Positions 5,038-61,459 of a stretch of 64,000 bases of DNA are shown piece by piece. The number at the start of each line of letters is the position of its first letter. Position 1 is the stretch's first letter. The notes below the pieces were generated by a model that was given only the letters and a program-made list of their open reading frames with translations, had not been told where the DNA came from and searched no databases. The stretch is taken from NCBI RefSeq assembly GCF_014844055.1, contig NZ_CP062167.1, positions 1,193,501 to 1,257,500 of the forward strand, written 5' to 3'. The stretch comes from Aureimonas sp. OT7 (lineage in GTDB: Bacteria > Pseudomonadota > Alphaproteobacteria > Rhizobiales > Rhizobiaceae). A program made the position numbers and the translations under genes.

Positions 5038-6126
5038 TTGGGCAGTGCATTCGTTGCGGGGGCCGAGATTGCCCTCGATCAAGCCATCGACGCCGCGGCC
5101 CTGGCCCTTGTCCAGGCGAGGCACGTCCTGGTGACCGGGCTGGATGCGGACGCCAACGTCGTGCGCTCGGCCCACCGCCTCGCCCGTGCCTGCGGCGGTG
5201 TCATCGACCACGCCGGGTCTGGCCGCATCTATCCGTTTCTGTCCGCATTCCGCGATCATGGGTTGATCCTGGGCGTGCCGTCGGAAGTGCGCCGCCGCGC
5301 CGACCGGGTGCTGGTGGTGGGCGCCGACGCCGCGGCGCCGGCGCCCGGCTTTCTGGAGGGCCTTGCAAAGGCCGGGCCGGACCTGCCGGCACCGCAGCCA
5401 GGCCCAAGGCGCCTTTTCTGGCTGGGCCCGGCAAGCCCACCCTGCGCCATTCCCGCGATGATCGAGGCGGAGTTCGCCGCCTGTCCGCCGGACCGCCTGA
5501 CGGAGGCCCTTGCCGTTCTGCGCGCCTCTCTCAAGGGACAGCGCCACGGTTCCGGCCCGCTGGCAGAGGCGGATCACGCGCGGCTTCTCGGCTTCGTGCA
5601 GGGGGGCCGGTTCGGTGTGGTCGTCTGGCCGGCGGCTGCGACCGACGCGATCGGCAACGAGATGGCGGCCGGGCTGGTGGACGATCTGAATACGGGACGT
5701 CGCTTTACCGCCATGCCGCTTTTGCCGGACGATGGCGCCTATGGCGCGGCGCTCCTCTCCACGTCCATCACCGGCTTCCCTCTGCGCGTATCCTACGCGG
5801 GCGGAGCGCCGCACCACGACCCCTATGCGTTCGACGGCAGGCGCATGATCGCGGACGGAGAATGCGACCTCGTAGTGGCCGTATCCGAAAAGGCCGACGT
5901 CATCGACGGCAGCCATATCGCCATCGGGCCGGCGTTCCGGGACGATGCCGCCGGCATCGTCATCCGTGCCGCCGTGCCCGACCGGCCCGTCTATTATCGC
6001 CCGCAACTCGGCAGTTTCGGCCAGAGCTCCACGGCCGAGCAACCGGCGAGGACCGCGATGCATCAGGTGCTGCGTGCCCTCGAGCAGGCGGTGCGACAGC
6101 AGGTTTCAGCGGAGGGGCGGCCATGA
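5038..6126 (+). CDS. fhcB: formyltransferase/hydrolase complex subunit B (formylmethanofuran dehydrogenase B-like)
   Basis: The frame encodes a FwdB/FmdB-like protein of about 362 residues, e.g. VLVTGLDADANVV, GGVIDHAGSG and GLVDDLNTGRRF. The archaeal enzyme carries tungsten/molybdenum and an iron-sulphur cluster; this protein shows no N-terminal Cys cluster, as expected for the non-redox bacterial FhcB. The Fhc complex moves formyl from H4MPT to a methanofuran-like carrier and releases formate. The start is uncertain: TTG at 5038 places AFVAGAEIALD near the N-terminus as in homologues, but no clear ribosome-binding site precedes it. The in-frame ATG at 4750 lies inside the divergent gene. 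The stop overlaps fhcA (ATGA). Confidence 0.88.
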   Translation: MGSAFVAGAEIALDQAIDAAALALVQARHVLVTGLDADANVVRSAHRLARACGGVIDHAGSGRIYPFLSAFRDHGLILGVPSEVRRRADRVLVVGADAAAPAPGFLEGLAKAGPDLPAPQPGPRRLFWLGPASPPCAIPAMIEAEFAACPPDRLTEALAVLRASLKGQRHGSGPLAEADHARLLGFVQGGRFGVVVWPAAATDAIGNEMAAGLVDDLNTGRRFTAMPLLPDDGAYGAALLSTSITGFPLRVSYAGGAPHHDPYAFDGRRMIADGECDLVVAVSEKADVIDGSHIAIGPAFRDDAAGIVIRAAVPDRPVYYRPQLGSFGQSSTAEQPARTAMHQVLRALEQAVRQQVSAEGRP

Positions 6127-7742
6127 CGATCCTGTTGAAGGGCGGCCGCGTCCTGGACCCGGCCGCAGGGCGCGACGCGGTCGGAGATGTCGTCGTCGCC
6201 GATGGCCGGATCGCGGAAGGCGCTTCCGGCACGGTCGAGGCAATCGACTGCACCGGCCTTGTCGTGATGGCCGGCGGCATCGACATCCATTCCCATATCG
6301 CCGGCGGTTTGGTGAATACGGCGCGGCTCCTGCTGCCCGAGTTTCACCCGGCCCATGCGCCGCGTCCGGCCGGAACGCCCCTTTCGCAGGTGGGGTGGAC
6401 CACCTGGGAAACCGGTACACGCTATGCCCAGATGGGCTTTACCATGGTGGTGGAACCGGCCATGGGGCCGTCGGGCGCGCTGCATACGCATCTGGAACTG
6501 GCCGATATCCCGATCATCGACCGTGCGGCGCTGGTGGTCCTGGGCAATGACGACTTCCTGCTGTCACGCTTGCGGGACGGCGCAAGCGAGGCCGAAATCG
6601 ACGATTATGTCGCCTGGCAGGTTTCCGCCGCCGGGGCTCTCGGCGTCAAATGCATCAATGCCGGCGGGTCAGCCGCCTTCAAGGCCGATGTGCGAAGCTT
6701 CGGTTTCGACGACGAGGTGCCCGGCTACGGGCTCTCGTCGCGGCGTATCGTCAAGGCCCTGCAGGACAGCGTACAGAGGCTGGGCATAGCCCATCCCCTG
6801 CACGTCCACTGCAACAATCTGGGAGTGCCGGGCGACGGAGAGGCCGCCGCGGAGGCGACGATGATTGCCGCCGAAGGCGTTCCGATGCACCTGGCTCATA
6901 TCCAGTTCTACGGCTACGGCACCGATGGCCGGCGTGGCTTCTCTTCGCTGGCACGGCGGCTCGCCGACCTCGTCAACGCCCGGCCGGAACTGACCGTGGA
7001 CATCGGCCAGGTCATGTTCGGCCAGACCGTTACCGTCTCGTCCGATGAATTGCGCCAGTTCGCCGGGCGGCCGCTGGCCCGCCCGCGCAAATCGGCCATC
7101 ATCGACGGCGATGCCAATGGCGGCGGCGCGGTCCCGATGAACTATCGTCAGACGGACTACTACAACGCCATGCAGTGGGCGATCGGGCTCGAACTGTTCC
7201 TGATGATCGACGATCCGTGGCGGGTCTTCTTTACCACCGACCACCCCAACGGGGCTCCCTTCACCACCTATCCGGATCTTTTCGCGCTGCTGATGAGCCG
7301 CGACCTGCGGGCCGAGTGGCTGAACGCCCTGCCGCCGGGCGTGCGCAGGCGCAGCGCGCTGGCGGACCTTTCGCGCGAATACACGCTGCCGGAAATCGCC
7401 ATCATGACGCGCGCCGCCCCGGCGCGGCTGCTGGGCCTGCCGGACCGGGGCACGCTGGCGCCCGGCGCACGCGCCGATATCGCCGTCTATCGCCCGGGCG
7501 CGGATGTCGCCGCGATGTTCGGCGCAGCCGAGCATGTGCTGAAGGATGGCGTCCCGGTGGTGCGCGGCGGACGGGTAACCGCCACGCCCGCCGGCCATAC
7601 GATGGCGCTGTCGCGCCCTCGCGACCGCGCGATGGTGCGTCGGCTGGAGACCTTCTACGACGAAAAATACGGCCTGCCCCTCCATTGGTTCGAGGTGGAG
7701 GACGACGCCCTCGGCGGCGACGTGCTGGAGGTCGTGCCATGA
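6123..7742 (+). CDS. fhcA: formyltransferase/hydrolase complex subunit A (amidohydrolase subunit)
   Basis: This 539-residue amidohydrolase-fold protein is the hydrolytic subunit of Fhc, releasing formate from formylmethanofuran. Visible metal-site features are HSH at residues 56-58, GVKCINAGG (candidate bridging lysine), HVHCNNLG and the late aspartate in FFTTDHPNGAPF. Its length and order match FwdA/FmdA relatives. It is coupled to fhcB upstream and fhcD downstream through ATGA overlaps, consistent with stoichiometric complex assembly. Confidence 0.95.
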   Translation: MTILLKGGRVLDPAAGRDAVGDVVVADGRIAEGASGTVEAIDCTGLVVMAGGIDIHSHIAGGLVNTARLLLPEFHPAHAPRPAGTPLSQVGWTTWETGTRYAQMGFTMVVEPAMGPSGALHTHLELADIPIIDRAALVVLGNDDFLLSRLRDGASEAEIDDYVAWQVSAAGALGVKCINAGGSAAFKADVRSFGFDDEVPGYGLSSRRIVKALQDSVQRLGIAHPLHVHCNNLGVPGDGEAAAEATMIAAEGVPMHLAHIQFYGYGTDGRRGFSSLARRLADLVNARPELTVDIGQVMFGQTVTVSSDELRQFAGRPLARPRKSAIIDGDANGGGAVPMNYRQTDYYNAMQWAIGLELFLMIDDPWRVFFTTDHPNGAPFTTYPDLFALLMSRDLRAEWLNALPPGVRRRSALADLSREYTLPEIAIMTRAAPARLLGLPDRGTLAPGARADIAVYRPGADVAAMFGAAEHVLKDGVPVVRGGRVTATPAGHTMALSRPRDRAMVRRLETFYDEKYGLPLHWFEVEDDALGGDVLEVVP

Positions 7743-8647
7743 GCGCGCGGGTCGTCAATGGCGTGACCGTGGACGACACGTTCGCCGAGGCGTTCCCGAT
7801 GCGGGGCACGGCCATCGTGATCACGGCGGTCGACGCGGCATGGGCCATGGAGGCAGCCCGCTCCTTCACCGGTTTTGCCACATCGGTCATCGCCTGTGGG
7901 TGCGAGGCCGCCATCGATGCCGTCCTGTCGCCGGGCGATACGCCGGACGGGCGGCCGGGCGTGCGCATCCTGATCTTCGCGATGGATAGCAAGGGTTTGG
8001 AGAAGCAGCTCGCCACCCGCCTTGGCCAGTGCATCCTGACCAGCCCGTCCTCGGCCTGCTACGCGGGGCTGGACGGTGCGACGCGGCTGCCGCTTGGCGA
8101 CGCGATCCGCTATTTCGCCGATGGCTGGCAGGTCTCCAAGCGTATCGGCGCACGCCATTTCTGGCGGCTGCCGGTGATGGAGGGCGAGTTCCTGTGCGAG
8201 GCCACGACCGGGTTGACGAAGGAGGCGGTCGGCGGCGGCAACCTGCTGCTGCTGGCGGCCGATGCGGCTCGCGCACTGGCGGCGGCCGAGGCCGCACGCG
8301 ATGCCATCGCCGCCCTGGACGGCTGCATCATGCCGTTTCCCGGCGGCATCGTGCGGTCCGGCTCCAAGATCGGCGGCAAGTACAAGGGCATGATGGCCTC
8401 CACCAATGACGCCTACTGCCCGACATTGAAGGGCACGGTCGACAGCGCCCTGTCGCCCGACATCGGCTCGGTGCTGGAGATCGTCATCGACGGCCTGAGC
8501 TTCGACCACGTCGCCGCAGCGATGCGCGCCGGGCTGTCCGCCGCCGTCGCGCTCGGGCCCGACAGGGGCGCCACGCGCATCTCGGCCGGCAATTACGGCG
8601 GCAAGCTCGGCCCCCATCACTTCAAACTTCTGGATCTCCTGCCATGA
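7739..8647 (+). CDS. fhcD: formylmethanofuran:tetrahydromethanopterin formyltransferase
   Basis: The 302-residue protein has the Ftr-type N-terminus (VNGVTVDDTFAEAFPMRG) and blocks FWRLPVMEGEF and FPGGIVRSGSKIGGKYKG. It transfers the formyl group from N5-formyl-H4MPT to the methanofuran analogue within the Fhc complex. The ATG at 7739 overlaps the fhcA stop; the 3' end overlaps fhcC. A longer upstream frame is only a shadow of fhcA. Confidence 0.95.
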   Translation: MSARVVNGVTVDDTFAEAFPMRGTAIVITAVDAAWAMEAARSFTGFATSVIACGCEAAIDAVLSPGDTPDGRPGVRILIFAMDSKGLEKQLATRLGQCILTSPSSACYAGLDGATRLPLGDAIRYFADGWQVSKRIGARHFWRLPVMEGEFLCEATTGLTKEAVGGGNLLLLAADAARALAAAEAARDAIAALDGCIMPFPGGIVRSGSKIGGKYKGMMASTNDAYCPTLKGTVDSALSPDIGSVLEIVIDGLSFDHVAAAMRAGLSAAVALGPDRGATRISAGNYGGKLGPHHFKLLDLLP

Positions 8648-9441
8648 CCCGGTCCATCCTTTCCTTGCGTGCATCGCCGGGCGAGCGGCTGGACCTGTCG
8701 CGACTGGACCCGGTGGCGTTCGCGGCATCGACACAGGGGGAGGTCGCCCGGTTGCCCGTCGGCATGGGTGGCGGAGGGCCGCTGCTGGGCGATCTTTTCG
8801 ATATCCGCCTCGGCGACGAGGATACGCTTGTGATCGAGGGTGGATCGCCGCGCTTCGACCGGCTCGGACAAGGGCTGGCGGCCGGCACGATCCGCGTCGT
8901 CGGCGATGTCGGGCAACTTGTCGGTCGCGGCATGACGGGAGGACACCTCGACATCGAGGGCGCGGCCGGGCCGTTGGCAGGCTCCGGCATGGCAGGGGGC
9001 AGCATCCGCATCGGCGGCGATGCCGACGATTGTCTGGGCGGGACGATGCCGGGCGAGATGGCCGGAATGCGTGGCGGGCAGATCGTCGTCGAGGGCAATG
9101 CCGGCCTGCGCGCCGGCGACAGGATGCGGCGCGGCACGATCATCGTTGCCGGAAGTGCCGGGGCCTATGCCGGATCGCGCATGATTGCCGGCACGCTGGT
9201 TGTCGGCGGTGGCTGCGGAGCAGGGGTCGGGCAGCTTATGCGGCGCGGCACGATCATCCTTGCGGCTGCGCCGGCGTCGGTTCCCGCGAGCTTCGTCGAC
9301 AACGGCGTCGCCGAACTCCTGTTCATCCGACTGCTGACCGGCCTGGATCCGCGGATGCCGGCCTTGCCCTCCAGGCTGAGACGGTTGACTGGCGACATGG
9401 CGACCATTGGTAAAGGCGAAATCCTGTTGCCTACCGAATGA
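8644..9441 (+). CDS. fhcC: formyltransferase/hydrolase complex subunit C
   Basis: The 265-residue product is a right-handed beta-helix protein of the FwdC/GltS-C type. It shows repeated Gly-rich turns such as VGRGMTGGHLDIEG, AGSGMAGGSIRIGG and AGSRMIAGTLVVGG between residues about 80 and 200. In Fhc it is a structural subunit that holds the A, B and D subunits. It is the last gene of fhcBADC; downstream lies the urea transporter promoter region. Confidence 0.93.
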   Translation: MTRSILSLRASPGERLDLSRLDPVAFAASTQGEVARLPVGMGGGGPLLGDLFDIRLGDEDTLVIEGGSPRFDRLGQGLAAGTIRVVGDVGQLVGRGMTGGHLDIEGAAGPLAGSGMAGGSIRIGGDADDCLGGTMPGEMAGMRGGQIVVEGNAGLRAGDRMRRGTIIVAGSAGAYAGSRMIAGTLVVGGGCGAGVGQLMRRGTIILAAAPASVPASFVDNGVAELLFIRLLTGLDPRMPALPSRLRRLTGDMATIGKGEILLPTE

Positions 9442-57281: not shown

Positions 57282-58019
57282 TTACCTGCGAAGGCCTTGG
57301 GCGTCCCGGGTGGCATAGATGTCGCCAGACTGCGCATCGTCGGCGAGGTCGAGGATTTGCTGCCGCATGGACGCCGCGTCGCACCAACTGGTCGTGACCC
57401 AGCGGTTGCTTTCTCCGACCACGCGGTTGAACCGGTAGGGGGCAAGGGACGCAAGCCTGTCGATGGCGCCCAACGCCACCTCACGCATCGGCGGGACGTA
57501 TTCGAAGGCGACTGTCTGGATCGGATGGCTCAACCCGGCCAGGATCGCCGCCTCCGCCCCCTCGACGTCGATCTTGCAGAAGGCAGGCATGCCATGGCGC
57601 GCAATCAGCATGTCGAGCGTCTCGATGTCGACAGGCTGCCGCCCGTCCCAGCGCACCTTGCGGAAGCCCGGCGCGCGGGAGGCGCCGTCGATGAAGTCGG
57701 CCGATATCGTGGACACCGTCGGATGCCGTGACGAAACATGCAATATCGCTTGCCCCGGCTCTGCACCGAGGGCACAGCGCTCGAGCGCAACCAGCCGCCC
57801 GCCCATGCTGCGTTGCAGGAAATCGGCGTAGGGCCGCTGGGGCTCCACTGCGACCACCCGGGCTCCGAGCCGCACCATGGCGATGCTGCGGTTGCCGACA
57901 TGCGCGCCGATGTCGAAAACAAGGTCGCCGGGGCGGACGAAGCCGGCAAGGAAATGCCGGAGTGCGCGATCCTTCCAGGGACGGGCGCGATATATGGCCA
58001 GCGAGCGTGCCAGTCCCAA
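57282..58019 (-). CDS. FkbM-family SAM-dependent methyltransferase
   Basis: The 245-residue protein has SAM motif I (LVFDIGAHVGNRSIAMVRLG), the motif-II region VVAVEPQRP and FCKIDVEGAEAAILAGL, as in FkbM O-methyltransferases that often modify sugars. The start is unclear: TTG at 58019 has no good site, while a CTG at 58040 follows AGGAG. It diverges from the ADH/PTPS-like/methyltransferase operon 136 bases away. Confidence 0.82.
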   Translation of the reverse strand: MGLARSLAIYRARPWKDRALRHFLAGFVRPGDLVFDIGAHVGNRSIAMVRLGARVVAVEPQRPYADFLQRSMGGRLVALERCALGAEPGQAILHVSSRHPTVSTISADFIDGASRAPGFRKVRWDGRQPVDIETLDMLIARHGMPAFCKIDVEGAEAAILAGLSHPIQTVAFEYVPPMREVALGAIDRLASLAPYRFNRVVGESNRWVTTSWCDAASMRQQILDLADDAQSGDIYATRDAQGLRR

Positions 58020-58155: not shown

Positions 58156-59136
58156 ATGAACATGGACGTGGGACGCATGGCGCGGGCACTGTGGCTGGAA
58201 AGCGAAGGAACGGCGCGGCTGCGGCAGGAGCCGACGCCGCATGCCGGACCAGGCGACGTCGTGGTGCGTGCAGCCTATTCCGGCATAAGCCGCGGTACGG
58301 AACGGCTGGTGTTCGACGGTCGGGTTCCGCCCGGTTCGTGGCAGGACATGCGCGGGCCGCATATGCAGGGCGGCTTCGGCTTTCCGCTCAAATACGGCTA
58401 TGCCGTCGTCGGCGACATCGTCGCCGGCCAGCCGGACAGGGTGGGTGAAACCGTCTTCTGCCTGCATCCCCACCAGGATGTCTTCAGCATCCCGGCGACG
58501 GACGCCGTGCCGGTGCCCGCAAGCGTGCCGCACCGCCGCGCTGTTCTGGCCGCCAACATGGAAACGGCGCTCAACATCGTATGGGACGCCAATATCCTGC
58601 CGGGAGACCGGGTAGCCGTCTTCGGGGCGGGGGTGGTCGGCTGCCTCGTCGCCTATCTGGCGGCGCGCATTCCGGCAACAAAGGTCGTCATCATCGATCG
58701 GCAGGCCTGCCGCGCCGAAACTGCCGAGGCCCTCGGCGTCGCATTCGCCGGCTCTTCCACGGGGCAGAGCGACTGCGACGTGGTGGTCAACGTGACCGGT
58801 TCCAGTGAAGCCTTGTGCGAGGCGATCGAGATTGCCGGCATCGAGGCGCGGATCGTGGAGGCAAGCTGGTACGGCAGCCGGCCGGCAGAGTTGCACCTGG
58901 GTGGCGCCTTCCACTCCCGGCGGCTGACGATTGCGAGTTCGCAGGTTGGGGCCGTCTCTCCGTCGCGCGCCCCGCGCTGGGCGTCGAGGCGGCGGCTGGA
59001 GACCGCGCTGGCCCTGCTCGCGGATGAACGGCTCGACTGTCTCATCGTTGGTGAAAGCGCATTCGACAGCCTCGATGCAGATTATGCCGGCATCCTCGCC
59101 GACCCATCCACCCTGTGCCATTGCGTCCGCTACTGA
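58156..59136 (+). CDS. BchC-like medium-chain alcohol dehydrogenase
   Basis: The 326-residue protein has a GroES-like N-terminal domain (YSGISRGTERLVFDGRVP, FPLKYGYAVVGDIVAG) and a Rossmann domain (VAVFGAGVVGCLVAYLAAR). The segment ISRGTERLVF is typical of the BchC / zinc-binding dehydrogenase subgroup; the classic catalytic Cys-Asp-His zinc site is not evident. It starts at 58156 with GGAAGG upstream. The PTPS-like gene follows after 10 bases. A substrate is not known; context suggests a dedicated pathway with the next two genes. Confidence 0.82.
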   Translation: MNMDVGRMARALWLESEGTARLRQEPTPHAGPGDVVVRAAYSGISRGTERLVFDGRVPPGSWQDMRGPHMQGGFGFPLKYGYAVVGDIVAGQPDRVGETVFCLHPHQDVFSIPATDAVPVPASVPHRRAVLAANMETALNIVWDANILPGDRVAVFGAGVVGCLVAYLAARIPATKVVIIDRQACRAETAEALGVAFAGSSTGQSDCDVVVNVTGSSEALCEAIEIAGIEARIVEASWYGSRPAELHLGGAFHSRRLTIASSQVGAVSPSRAPRWASRRRLETALALLADERLDCLIVGESAFDSLDADYAGILADPSTLCHCVRY

Positions 59137-59146
59137 GGGAGCTTTC

Positions 59147-59545
59147 ATGTACGCCGTCGAAGTCCGTGACCATATCATGATCGCCCATAGCCTTCCCCGG
59201 CCGGTCTTCGGCCCGGCGCAGGCGATGCATGGGGCGACCTTCGTCGTCGACGCGGCCTTTTTCACGGACGATCTGGACGAGGACGGGCTTGCGGTCGATA
59301 TCGGCCGCGCCACCCAACTGCTTGCCAGCGTCCTGAAGCCCTTGAACTATGCCAACCTCGACGCGTCGCCGGCCTTTGCCGGCAAGGTGTCGACCACGGA
59401 GGCCATCGCCAGGCACATATTCGATGCGCTTGCCGGGGCGATATCGGCCGGCGGTCTGGGCGGCGCGGGCGCGCCGGTGCGCAAACTGCGGATCACCCTG
59501 CATGAATCGCATGTCGCACGGGCCTGGTACGAGGCCGCCCTGTGA
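59147..59545 (+). CDS. PTPS/QueD-fold protein lacking canonical catalytic residues
   Basis: The 132-residue protein aligns with 6-pyruvoyl-tetrahydropterin synthase/QueD: DHIMIAHSL carries the first zinc His (H14) and MHGATF the second (H28). The third ligand of the HGH motif is Ala (A30), the catalytic Cys four residues before HGH is also Ala (A24), and the Asp-His pair of the LDH motif reads Asn-Tyr (LNYANLD). The C-terminal Glu region (LHESHVARAWY) is kept. So it is a related but non-standard enzyme or a binding protein. The ATG follows GAGGGAGC; the next gene starts at an overlapping GTGA. Confidence 0.85.
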   Translation: MYAVEVRDHIMIAHSLPRPVFGPAQAMHGATFVVDAAFFTDDLDEDGLAVDIGRATQLLASVLKPLNYANLDASPAFAGKVSTTEAIARHIFDALAGAISAGGLGGAGAPVRKLRITLHESHVARAWYEAAL

Positions 59546-60411
59546 GCGGAGACTTTGCGGCGGACTGGCTGACCCTGCGCGAGCCCGCCGATCTCGAAGC
59601 GCGCGACGCAAGCCTTTTGGGTCGCCTCGGATCCCTTTGCGGCGAACTGTCGATCAACGAGGCGGTCGATCTCGGTTGTGGAACGGGTTCGACCTGGCGC
59701 GCGATGCCGCCCGCTTTGGCCGATGGCCTTCGCTGGACGCTGGTCGACCGCGACACGCGCCTGTTGGACGAGGCGCGTCATCGCCTTGGCGACAGGCCGA
59801 ATGTCCGGTTTCGTGCGATGGATCTCGGCGAAGTCCAGGCGATCCCGTTGCCAGTGCGTGGACTGGTGACGGCCTCGGCGCTTTTCGATCTGTGTTCCGC
59901 CGCCTGGATCGACACTTTCGTGGCCCGGATCGTCGAAAGCCATGGCGTTCTTTATGTCGCGCTGACGCATGACGGCGAGGTTTCGTTTGCGCCGTCTCAT
60001 GCGGGCGACCGCGACATAGGCCGCGCCTTCGATGCGCATCAGAGAACCGACAAGGGGCTGGGCGTCGCGCTGGGGCCGGATGCCGCCGCCCATCTTGCCA
60101 CCCGTCTGCGCGCTGCGGGGATGCATGTCCTGGAGGCGCGCTCCGACTGGGTCCTGACGGTGCGGGACGCCAGCCTGCAGCGCGCCTATATCGGCGGCTA
60201 TGCGGCCGCCCTCGGCGATGACCCGTCCGTGCACGGCATCCTGGACTCCTGGCTGTCGCATCGCTTTTCGGCAATCGATGCCGGCGCGGCGTCCTGCGTC
60301 GTCGGCCATCGCGACGTCCTGTCCTGGCCGCGCGGTCGAGGGCGCAGCGTCGCTCGGCCGTCGAGAAGGCCGATGTCCCGCTTTATCTCGTCCGGCAGGT
60401 CATCTTCCTGA
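59542..60411 (+). CDS. class I SAM-dependent methyltransferase
   Basis: The 289-residue protein has SAM motif I (AVDLGCGTGSTW, residues 41-52), motif II (WTLVDRDTRLLDEA) and RAMDLGEVQ. It starts at a GTG overlapping the stop of the PTPS-like gene (GTGA), so it belongs to that operon. The last 30 or so residues are Arg/Ser-rich and lie antisense to the DUF1127 gene; the true fold probably ends near DVLSWPR. The substrate is unknown. Confidence 0.8.
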   Translation: MSGDFAADWLTLREPADLEARDASLLGRLGSLCGELSINEAVDLGCGTGSTWRAMPPALADGLRWTLVDRDTRLLDEARHRLGDRPNVRFRAMDLGEVQAIPLPVRGLVTASALFDLCSAAWIDTFVARIVESHGVLYVALTHDGEVSFAPSHAGDRDIGRAFDAHQRTDKGLGVALGPDAAAHLATRLRAAGMHVLEARSDWVLTVRDASLQRAYIGGYAAALGDDPSVHGILDSWLSHRFSAIDAGAASCVVGHRDVLSWPRGRGRSVARPSRRPMSRFISSGRSSS

Positions 60412-60482
60412 ACAATGCGTGGTCCATCGAGCAGCCGCCGTATAAGTGTATTCGATATGCGACGAAGCAGGGAGGTAAGCAT
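60198..60482 (-). CDS. DUF1127 domain small protein
   Basis: The 94-residue product starts at the ATG at 60482 (AGGA upstream) and has the DUF1127 pattern LPDEIKRDIGLLDGRA after an Arg-rich amphipathic helix (LRRISNTLIRRLLDG). Such proteins are typically 45-90 residues and, in alphaproteobacteria, influence envelope stress and metabolism. The tail after residue 45 is unusual. The gene overlaps the 3' end of the convergent methyltransferase gene by 214 bases and is divergent from a LysR regulator. Confidence 0.7.
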   Translation of the reverse strand: MLTSLLRRISNTLIRRLLDGPRIVQEDDLPDEIKRDIGLLDGRATLRPRPRGQDRTSRWPTTQDAAPASIAEKRCDSQESRMPCTDGSSPRAAA

Positions 60483-60491
60483 GAGGCGATC

Positions 60492-60516
60492 CTGTCCGTT
60501 TGTGTCGAATGGACAG
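60492..60516. promoter_or_regulatory. 25-bp dyad upstream of the DUF1127 gene
   Basis: CTGTCCGTT (60492-60500) and AATGGACAG (60508-60516) are inverted repeats with eight of nine positions paired and a 7-base centre. The dyad ends ten bases before the DUF1127 start codon. A second small dyad, TGCC-TCC-GGCA, lies at 60553-60563. Either could be the LysR site, or the first may be an mRNA hairpin in the 5' leader. Confidence 0.4.
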
Positions 60517-60580
60517 TGAGCCCCTTTGCATGCGATGACCAATCGAAGTTCTTGCCTCCGGCATAAGGTATTTCGATAGG

Positions 60581-61459
60581 ATGTCGCCGCTTCCGCCGCT
60601 GTCCGCCCTGCGCGCCTTCGAGGCGGTCGCACGCAATCTCAGCTTCAGCCGCGCCGCCGAGGAGCTCGGGATGAGCCAGGCCGCCATCAGCTATCAGATC
60701 AAGGTTCTGGAAGACCGGGTAGGCAAGCTGTTTCACCGCCGTCACCGCCATATCGAGCTTACGGAGACCGGCCGCCTGCTGGCGCCGGGCGTCCGGCAGG
60801 CATTCCAGCAATTGTCGCAAGCCTTCGCCCATGCCCTTTCGGATCGAACCGAAGTGCTCTCCATGACGGTGGTGCCGACCTTCGCGTCGCAATGGCTGGC
60901 GCAACAGATCGGCACCTTCCAGATGGCTCATCCGGATATCGCCGTGCGGATCGAGGCGGGAACCGCGCTCGAGGATCTGTCCTCGGGCCGCTTCGACATG
61001 GCGATCCGGTCGGGTCCGGGCGGCTGGCCCGGCATCCGCGCGACGCGGCTGCTGCCGGTGGAGTTTACGCCGATGGTATCGTCTGCGGCGCTCGACCGCT
61101 TCGGACCGCTTTCGAGCCCGGGGGATCTGGCCGACTTTCCATTGCTCGACCCCGGCGACCCCTGGTGGGGCCAGTGGTTCGACGAGGTCGGCGTTCGCCG
61201 CGCGCCTCCAACGGGCAGGGTCTCGACGATGGGCGCCCAGCATCTGGAGGCGATGGCCGCGATGGCGGGCCATGGGGCGGCAATCCTGTCGCCTTTCTTC
61301 TACCGGGCGGAGCAGGCCGATGGCCGCCTGATCGCCCCCTTCGACCATGTGGCGCGCAATGGGCACTTCTACTGGCTTTGCGCGCCGCCCGGTCCCGTGC
61401 CGCGCAAGCTGCGCCTGTTCACAGAATGGCTGCTGCCGGCGCTTGGCGTGGACGCCTGA
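60581..61459 (+). CDS. LysR-family transcriptional regulator (GcvA-like)
   Basis: The 292-residue protein has the N-terminal helix-turn-helix (LSALRAFEAVARNLSFSRAAEELGMSQAAISYQIKVLE) of the GcvA subgroup and a periplasmic-binding-protein-like effector domain (MTVVPTFASQWLAQQIGTF). It is divergent from the DUF1127 gene, an arrangement resembling VtlR-type regulators of alphaproteobacteria that activate DUF1127 genes. It converges with the SDR gene, seven bases apart. Confidence 0.9.
   Translation: MSPLPPLSALRAFEAVARNLSFSRAAEELGMSQAAISYQIKVLEDRVGKLFHRRHRHIELTETGRLLAPGVRQAFQQLSQAFAHALSDRTEVLSMTVVPTFASQWLAQQIGTFQMAHPDIAVRIEAGTALEDLSSGRFDMAIRSGPGGWPGIRATRLLPVEFTPMVSSAALDRFGPLSSPGDLADFPLLDPGDPWWGQWFDEVGVRRAPPTGRVSTMGAQHLEAMAAMAGHGAAILSPFFYRAEQADGRLIAPFDHVARNGHFYWLCAPPGPVPRKLRLFTEWLLPALGVDA

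Follow-up and report, generated by a model that had tools for sequence, protein, structure and literature searches.

Based on analyses of an alcohol dehydrogenase, PTPS-like and methyltransferase gene row at positions 58156-60411 of a 64,000-nucleotide stretch of the Aureimonas sp. OT7 genome (hereafter the window), combined with comparisons to related loci in other genomes, we propose, as an evenly poised reading, that the row represents one half of an orphan pathway in which GTP would be turned into a glycosylated and methylated heterocycle of the diaminopyrimidine or pterin type. The gene set and its conservation, the changed residues, the fold and the splitting of the set in this lineage are observed; substrates, reactions, their order and the product we infer from the enzyme families, as follows. 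GTP cyclohydrolase II would first open GTP, in some genomes with a creatininase-type formamidase assisting, and a RibD_C-type reductase would then reduce the ribosyl chain. Next, the PTPS-like protein, a member of the PTPS-IV subfamily, would hold the ring via its conserved Glu120 and act on the side chain or the ring, using chemistry for which the Cys and the Asp-His pair of related enzymes would both be dispensable and in which no more than two of the three zinc histidines would take part. The product would then be oxidised or reduced by the alcohol dehydrogenase (ADH), with a sugar added by a GT4 glycosyltransferase (GT) and methyl groups by the methyltransferase, sometimes also by an FkbM protein. 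Finally, in many species, CDP-alcohol phosphatidyltransferase, sulfatase-like and LPG-synthase-type membrane proteins may attach, modify or move the product. The genes of the row and its divergent neighbour are:

57282..58019, minus strand: FkbM-family methyltransferase (TIGR01444 76.7 bits, cut-off 37.7; Pfam Methyltransf_21 46.9 bits, cut-off 22.7)
58156..59136, plus strand: zinc-type alcohol dehydrogenase family protein (ADH, MDR), set core; best NCBIfam match BchC
59147..59545, plus strand: PTPS-IV subfamily protein with FGPAQ, and HGA instead of HGH (Pfam PF01242, signature, solved relative 3D7J)
59542..60411, plus strand: class I SAM methyltransferase, set core (Pfam Methyltransf_25 31.2 bits, cut-off 27)

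The gene order described in the earlier note is borne out, as are the 10-base gap between the ADH and PTPS-like genes (59137-59146), the GTGA overlap at 59542-59545, in which the GTG start of the methyltransferase lies within the PTPS stop, and the divergent orientation of the FkbM gene. The ADH had been called BchC-like, which holds in a distant sense only: its score with the BchC model TIGR01202, 66.7 bits, is far short of the 291.25 required, ruling out a true BchC, and Pfam ADH_zinc_N stays below its cut-off as well (24.6 vs 31.8 bits). Reduction plus two methylations, as the note summarised the row, fits the half in the window, but the usual set also comes with a GT and often with RibD_C, GTP cyclohydrolase II and a CDP-alcohol transferase; the three-gene stretch is a tight row, yet merely part of this larger set. 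At the 3' end of the methyltransferase gene, a small ORF on the minus strand (60198-60632) converges on and overlaps it; its middle resembles DUF1127 proteins, and no Pfam match was found for 60333-60515. The window methyltransferase, with 289 residues versus 266 in A. altamirensis relatives, extends into this ORF.

The PTPS-like protein is the sole PF01242 match in the 4.18 Mb genome (73.4 bits, cut-off 22.4), and falls below both the QueD model (32.1 vs 89.25 bits) and the general PTPS model (23.8 vs 125.5 bits). In an HMM alignment with solved PTPS and QueD chains, Ala24 aligns with the Cys, Ala30 with the third HGH residue and Asn67-Tyr68 with the Asp-His pair, confirming the residue changes read earlier; we take the Cys, Asp-His and HGH positions to be catalytic residues or zinc ligands. 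The window protein has in common with QueD (PTPS-I) and 6-pyruvoyl tetrahydropterin synthase (PTPS-II) the fold, Glu120 and two of the three zinc histidines of the superfamily, His14 and His28, but differs from them at these substituted positions. As PTPS-IV lacks the Cys and one of the three zinc histidines, it is unlikely to follow canonical PTPS chemistry. Chain 4NTK also reads Ala at the Cys position, apparently an engineered change. The structure model of the window protein has a mean pLDDT of 95.8, and a fold search with it returned 33 PDB chains at E <=0.001, the named ones being of PTPS or QueD type. The solved relative 3D7J (SCO6650 of Streptomyces coelicolor), although from a different phylum, shares the FGPAQ...HGA stretch and matches at 2e-59 by sequence and with TM 0.93, rmsd 1.5 and 55% identity by fold.

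Residues 21-25 of the window protein read FGPAQ, which PMC5445326 gives as the signature of PTPS-IV, a named subfamily of COG0720. The subfamily was already named, and new here are one further member and the split form of the gene set. PMC5445326 also places PF00925 (termed FolE2 there; the Pfam name is GTP cyclohydrolase II) and PF01872 (RibD_C) near 561 PTPS-IV sequences; these neighbours recur in relatives of the window genome, whereas in the window genome itself neither is found next to PTPS-IV. No published function for PTPS-IV was found in the open-licence literature searched. Among the matches listed, the sources name PTPS-IV homologues mostly 6-carboxytetrahydropterin or 6-pyruvoyl tetrahydropterin synthase, labels that the PTPS-IV residues contradict.

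Could the protein nevertheless be an ordinary queuosine, folate, biopterin or F420 enzyme with unusual residues? Its fold and family would agree with this, and section 7 of PMC5041015 states as unpublished work that PTPS-IV serves archaeal F420. PMC5041015 also lists CxxxHGH as the motif of PTPS-I and CxxxxxHGH or ExxHGH as those of PTPS-II and PTPS-III, and none of the three is present in the window protein, which has A24...HGA instead. Together with the low QueD score, the genome itself argues against such an enzyme: no CofD match was found in it by a search that was positive in 10 of 14 control genomes, and QueC gave just a 31-residue match at 23 bits (control positive in 12 of 14). Hence, F420, for want of a CofD match, and de novo queuosine, with QueD below its cut-off and QueC partial, were rejected as candidates for the window genome, where both roles are unlikely, and the ordinary-enzyme explanation as a whole is highly improbable. 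Upstream of the main GTP cyclohydrolase II gene of this genome, at 2331778-2332980, are genes resembling queA and tgt (the row spans L094 3401-6981, G000:C1:2326000-2338000); with such genes present beside only a fragmentary QueC match and no QueD, salvaged precursors are the probable source of queuosine.

That A24, A30 and Asn-Tyr mark a clade, a possibility raised by the earlier note, agrees with the homologues. The near alignment comprises 201 of them (120 listed, being the best 120 of 7999 scored candidates, 80 from loci, and the window protein), that is 190 distinct sequences and 11 duplicates. Ala24, Ala30, Tyr68, His14, His28, Asn70, Asp72 and Glu120 are each found in 190/190 distinct sequences and Asn67 in 176/190, while Q25 of FGPAQ is replaced by R in a single one. 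Farther out, positions 67 and 68 vary, with Phe and rarely Leu turning up at the latter. A DNA motif search, which presupposes both alanines, detected PTPS-IV in 37/385 alphaproteobacterial genomes, and a profile search at E <=1e-15 in 45/385, eight more. Ala24 and Ala30 occur in all 45 profile-matched genomes, 37 of which were also found by the motif, so that only the eight profile-only genomes test the two positions freely; both alanines are present in 8/8, together with FGPAR in two, Asp at Asn70 in two and Leu at 68 in one. In a 48-member alignment, 29 sequences of which were chosen by the Ala-presupposing motif, the invariant residues include His14, Ser15, FGPAQ, His28 to Thr31, Asp51, Asn70-Leu71-Asp72, Thr84-Glu85 and Glu120. 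A lone degenerate copy or pseudogene is ruled out by the invariance of the near clade and by the alanines of the profile-only genomes, and as judged from the alignments the substitutions are characteristic of the clade, whose pocket is conserved, and do not represent decay.

Alternatively, PTPS-IV may not be an enzyme at all and may instead bind, or act as a scaffold for, an intermediate of this pathway, as would be compatible with the clade-wide loss of the Cys, the third His and the Asp-His pair. The 48-member alignment speaks against this, since the invariance of His14, His28, Asp51, Asp72, Glu85 and Glu120 seems to go beyond what binding would need, and we regard a scaffold role as improbable.

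The neighbourhood of PTPS-IV is conserved as well. Among the 44 alphaproteobacterial genomes with PTPS-IV besides that of the window, an ADH lies beside it in 43, a GT4 glycosyltransferase in 42, a methyltransferase in 38, a stand-alone RibD_C in 35 (on either side and either strand), GTP cyclohydrolase II in 18 (one weak, 23%) and a CDP-alcohol phosphatidyltransferase in 15. For 80 near loci, fetched by similarity, the corresponding counts are lower bounds, because simple ORF calling lost some genes (PTPS itself is named in 75/80 though all 80 were fetched by PTPS): at least 79 have an ADH, 78 a GT4, 75 a methyltransferase, 63 a sulfatase-like gene, 56 RibD_C, 55 a CDP-alcohol phosphatidyltransferase, 52 each an LPG-synthase-type membrane protein, GTP cyclohydrolase II and cytochrome b561 (an assigned family label, backed by 'cytochrome b' annotations), and 42 FkbM. 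The 36 distant loci, chosen by the motif, contain GT4 in 36, ADH in 35, methyltransferase in 32, RibD_C in 30, GTP cyclohydrolase II in 16, CDP-alcohol transferase in 12, b561 in 9, FkbM in 6 and sulfatase-like genes in 4. In the eight profile-only loci, ADH is present in all 8, GT4 and methyltransferase in 6 each, RibD_C in 5, CDP-alcohol transferase in 3, GTP cyclohydrolase II in 2 (one weak, 23%), and sulfatase-like and FkbM genes in 1 each. At L144 and L202 the contig breaks off within or close to the set, which leaves absences there uncertain, and two of the near loci (L002, L003) very probably stem from the same genomes as G386 and G385 of the genus sample. Chance adjacency is ruled out by the counts in all three groups of loci. 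FkbM, sulfatase-like and b561 genes are common solely among near relatives, where FkbM is a frequent accessory.

With neither lone degeneracy nor a lack of conserved neighbourhood found, the dedicated small-molecule pathway suggested by the earlier note is supported by the clade-wide substitutions and the recurring partners, although the PTPS-IV subfamily was already named. The product the note had in mind, a modified pterin or sugar-linked cofactor, would be one outcome of such a pathway.

The same partners may also be viewed differently, namely as making or decorating an envelope glycolipid, with PTPS-IV having been recruited to act on something other than a pterin or a pyrimidine, and with the GTP cyclohydrolase II and RibD_C genes as mere riboflavin neighbours. 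This would account for the frequent GT4, for the sulfatase-like, CDP-alcohol transferase and LPG-type genes of the near loci, for the many loci without GTP cyclohydrolase II, and for an MdoH-like glucosyltransferase gene in 9/36 distant loci (one representative identified). It is at odds with the invariance of Glu120, and with the finding that, in the 44 diverse loci, the deaminase-less RibD_C (35) outnumbers CDP-alcohol transferase (15) and sulfatase-like genes (5; four distant and one profile-only). We consider the glycolipid explanation credible but unlikely. MdoH-type glucans glucosyltransferase genes lie beside the set at L158 10212-11969 and L199 6079-7881, in distant Alphaproteobacteria and in Methylosinus.

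For the proposed pathway from GTP, one of the close known systems is the entry into riboflavin synthesis. The Tyr of the YxxQEGR stretch in GTP cyclohydrolase II is needed for full deformylation, and the cluster enzymes keep the Tyr of this YxxQEGR/YxxHEGR stretch in 52/52 near and 14/16 distant loci. The stretch is absent from two distant cluster proteins (L158 4704-5822; L159 12106-13317), which possibly form altered products. According to PMC9478397, BrbF of S. meliloti, which belongs to the creatininase family, removes the formyl group from the product of GTP cyclohydrolase, and a creatininase-like gene is present in 6/36 distant PTPS-IV loci (one representative identified). The families of the riboflavin entry (GTP cyclohydrolase II, BrbF formamidase, RibD reductase) occur in the PTPS-IV set, but RibD_C of the set lacks the deaminase and stands beside GT4, methyltransferase and PTPS-IV. 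In favour of the GTP pathway, the core is conserved in diverse Alphaproteobacteria, Thiodictyon, Streptomyces fungicidicus and Microbacterium, Glu120 is invariant, PTPS-IV and the GT co-occur in the genus, and three split genomes retain both halves. Against it, GTP cyclohydrolase II is absent from 26/44 loci and could serve riboflavin, two of the 16 distant enzymes lack YxxQEGR, and FkbM, sulfatase-like and b561 genes are restricted as described above. In addition, a stand-alone RibD_C is lacking in the window genome, where GTP cyclohydrolase II is encoded at a distance from either half, one genome of the genus (G389) has the GT half without PTPS-IV, and two Streptomyces regions have PTPS-IV without partners.

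In the window genome the two halves of the set are separated: 1.14 Mb lie between the PTPS-IV row and the genes for the GT, the CDP-alcohol transferase and the sulfatase-like protein. The GT orthologue at 2393834-2394889 (46% to the reference, 269.6 bits; next GT 71.1 bits) is directly behind the sulfatase-like and CDP-alcohol transferase genes, with TGATG overlaps, and a divergent b561-like gene adjoins. GTP cyclohydrolase II of the set is encoded at 2331778-2332980 (NCBI RibA model 501.3 bits, cut-off 464), and a second, weaker PF00925 domain at 1790.6 kb (88.5 bits) belongs to a 597-residue frame that is likely RibBA. The PF01872 search of this genome returned a single match, inside RibD with its deaminase part.

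Across 21 genomes of the genus, the GT is present in 14 and PTPS-IV in 12, all 12 of which also have the GT (one-sided Fisher p 3e-4). Nine of these have the two genes side by side, and three, the window genome, G385 and G386, keep both halves at separate places. Two genomes have the GT only: in G402 the contig ends just past the GT, so that its PTPS may be unassembled, and in G389 no match to PTPS-IV was found. Between the sulfatase-like gene and the GT gene of G389 (L214, G389:C2:39550-58000, 5484-8969) lies an NMT1/THI5-type ABC importer, made up of a binding protein, an ATPase and a permease, which perhaps brings in the missing intermediate. The importer is ruled out as a regular part of the set, as a similar binding protein occurs in 1/140 loci over 9 kb, overlapping loci included, the one being that of G389.

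Twenty plasmid records also match PTPS-IV, and of seven examined five carry the set. Three of these take it beyond the class, one into the Gammaproteobacteria (Candidatus Thiodictyon) and two into the Actinobacteria (Microbacterium, and Streptomyces fungicidicus with creatininase and ribA); the others are from Methylosinus (M. trichosporium OB3b) and Agrobacterium. In the two others, regions of Streptomyces linear plasmids (L196 and L201, near 9001-9426), no partners of PTPS-IV, neither ADH nor GT, were found within 9 kb; PTPS-IV of L196 reads FGSAQ in place of FGPAQ.

In its boldest form, which we hold to be doubtful, our proposal would define a new class of natural products in Alphaproteobacteria, some Gammaproteobacteria and Actinobacteria, namely a GTP-derived pterin or pyrimidine glycoside on a phospholipid or phospho-alcohol anchor, in which PTPS-IV would carry out a so far undescribed tunnel-fold reaction that dispenses with the catalytic Cys and with a three-His zinc site, and the biosynthetic half in G389 may have been replaced by the importer. 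The set occurs in 45 of the 385 sampled alphaproteobacterial genomes and in other phyla, and such frequency indicates that an actual metabolite without a name lies behind it. Given a solved PTPS-IV structure and a core of four genes, its chemistry is directly testable.
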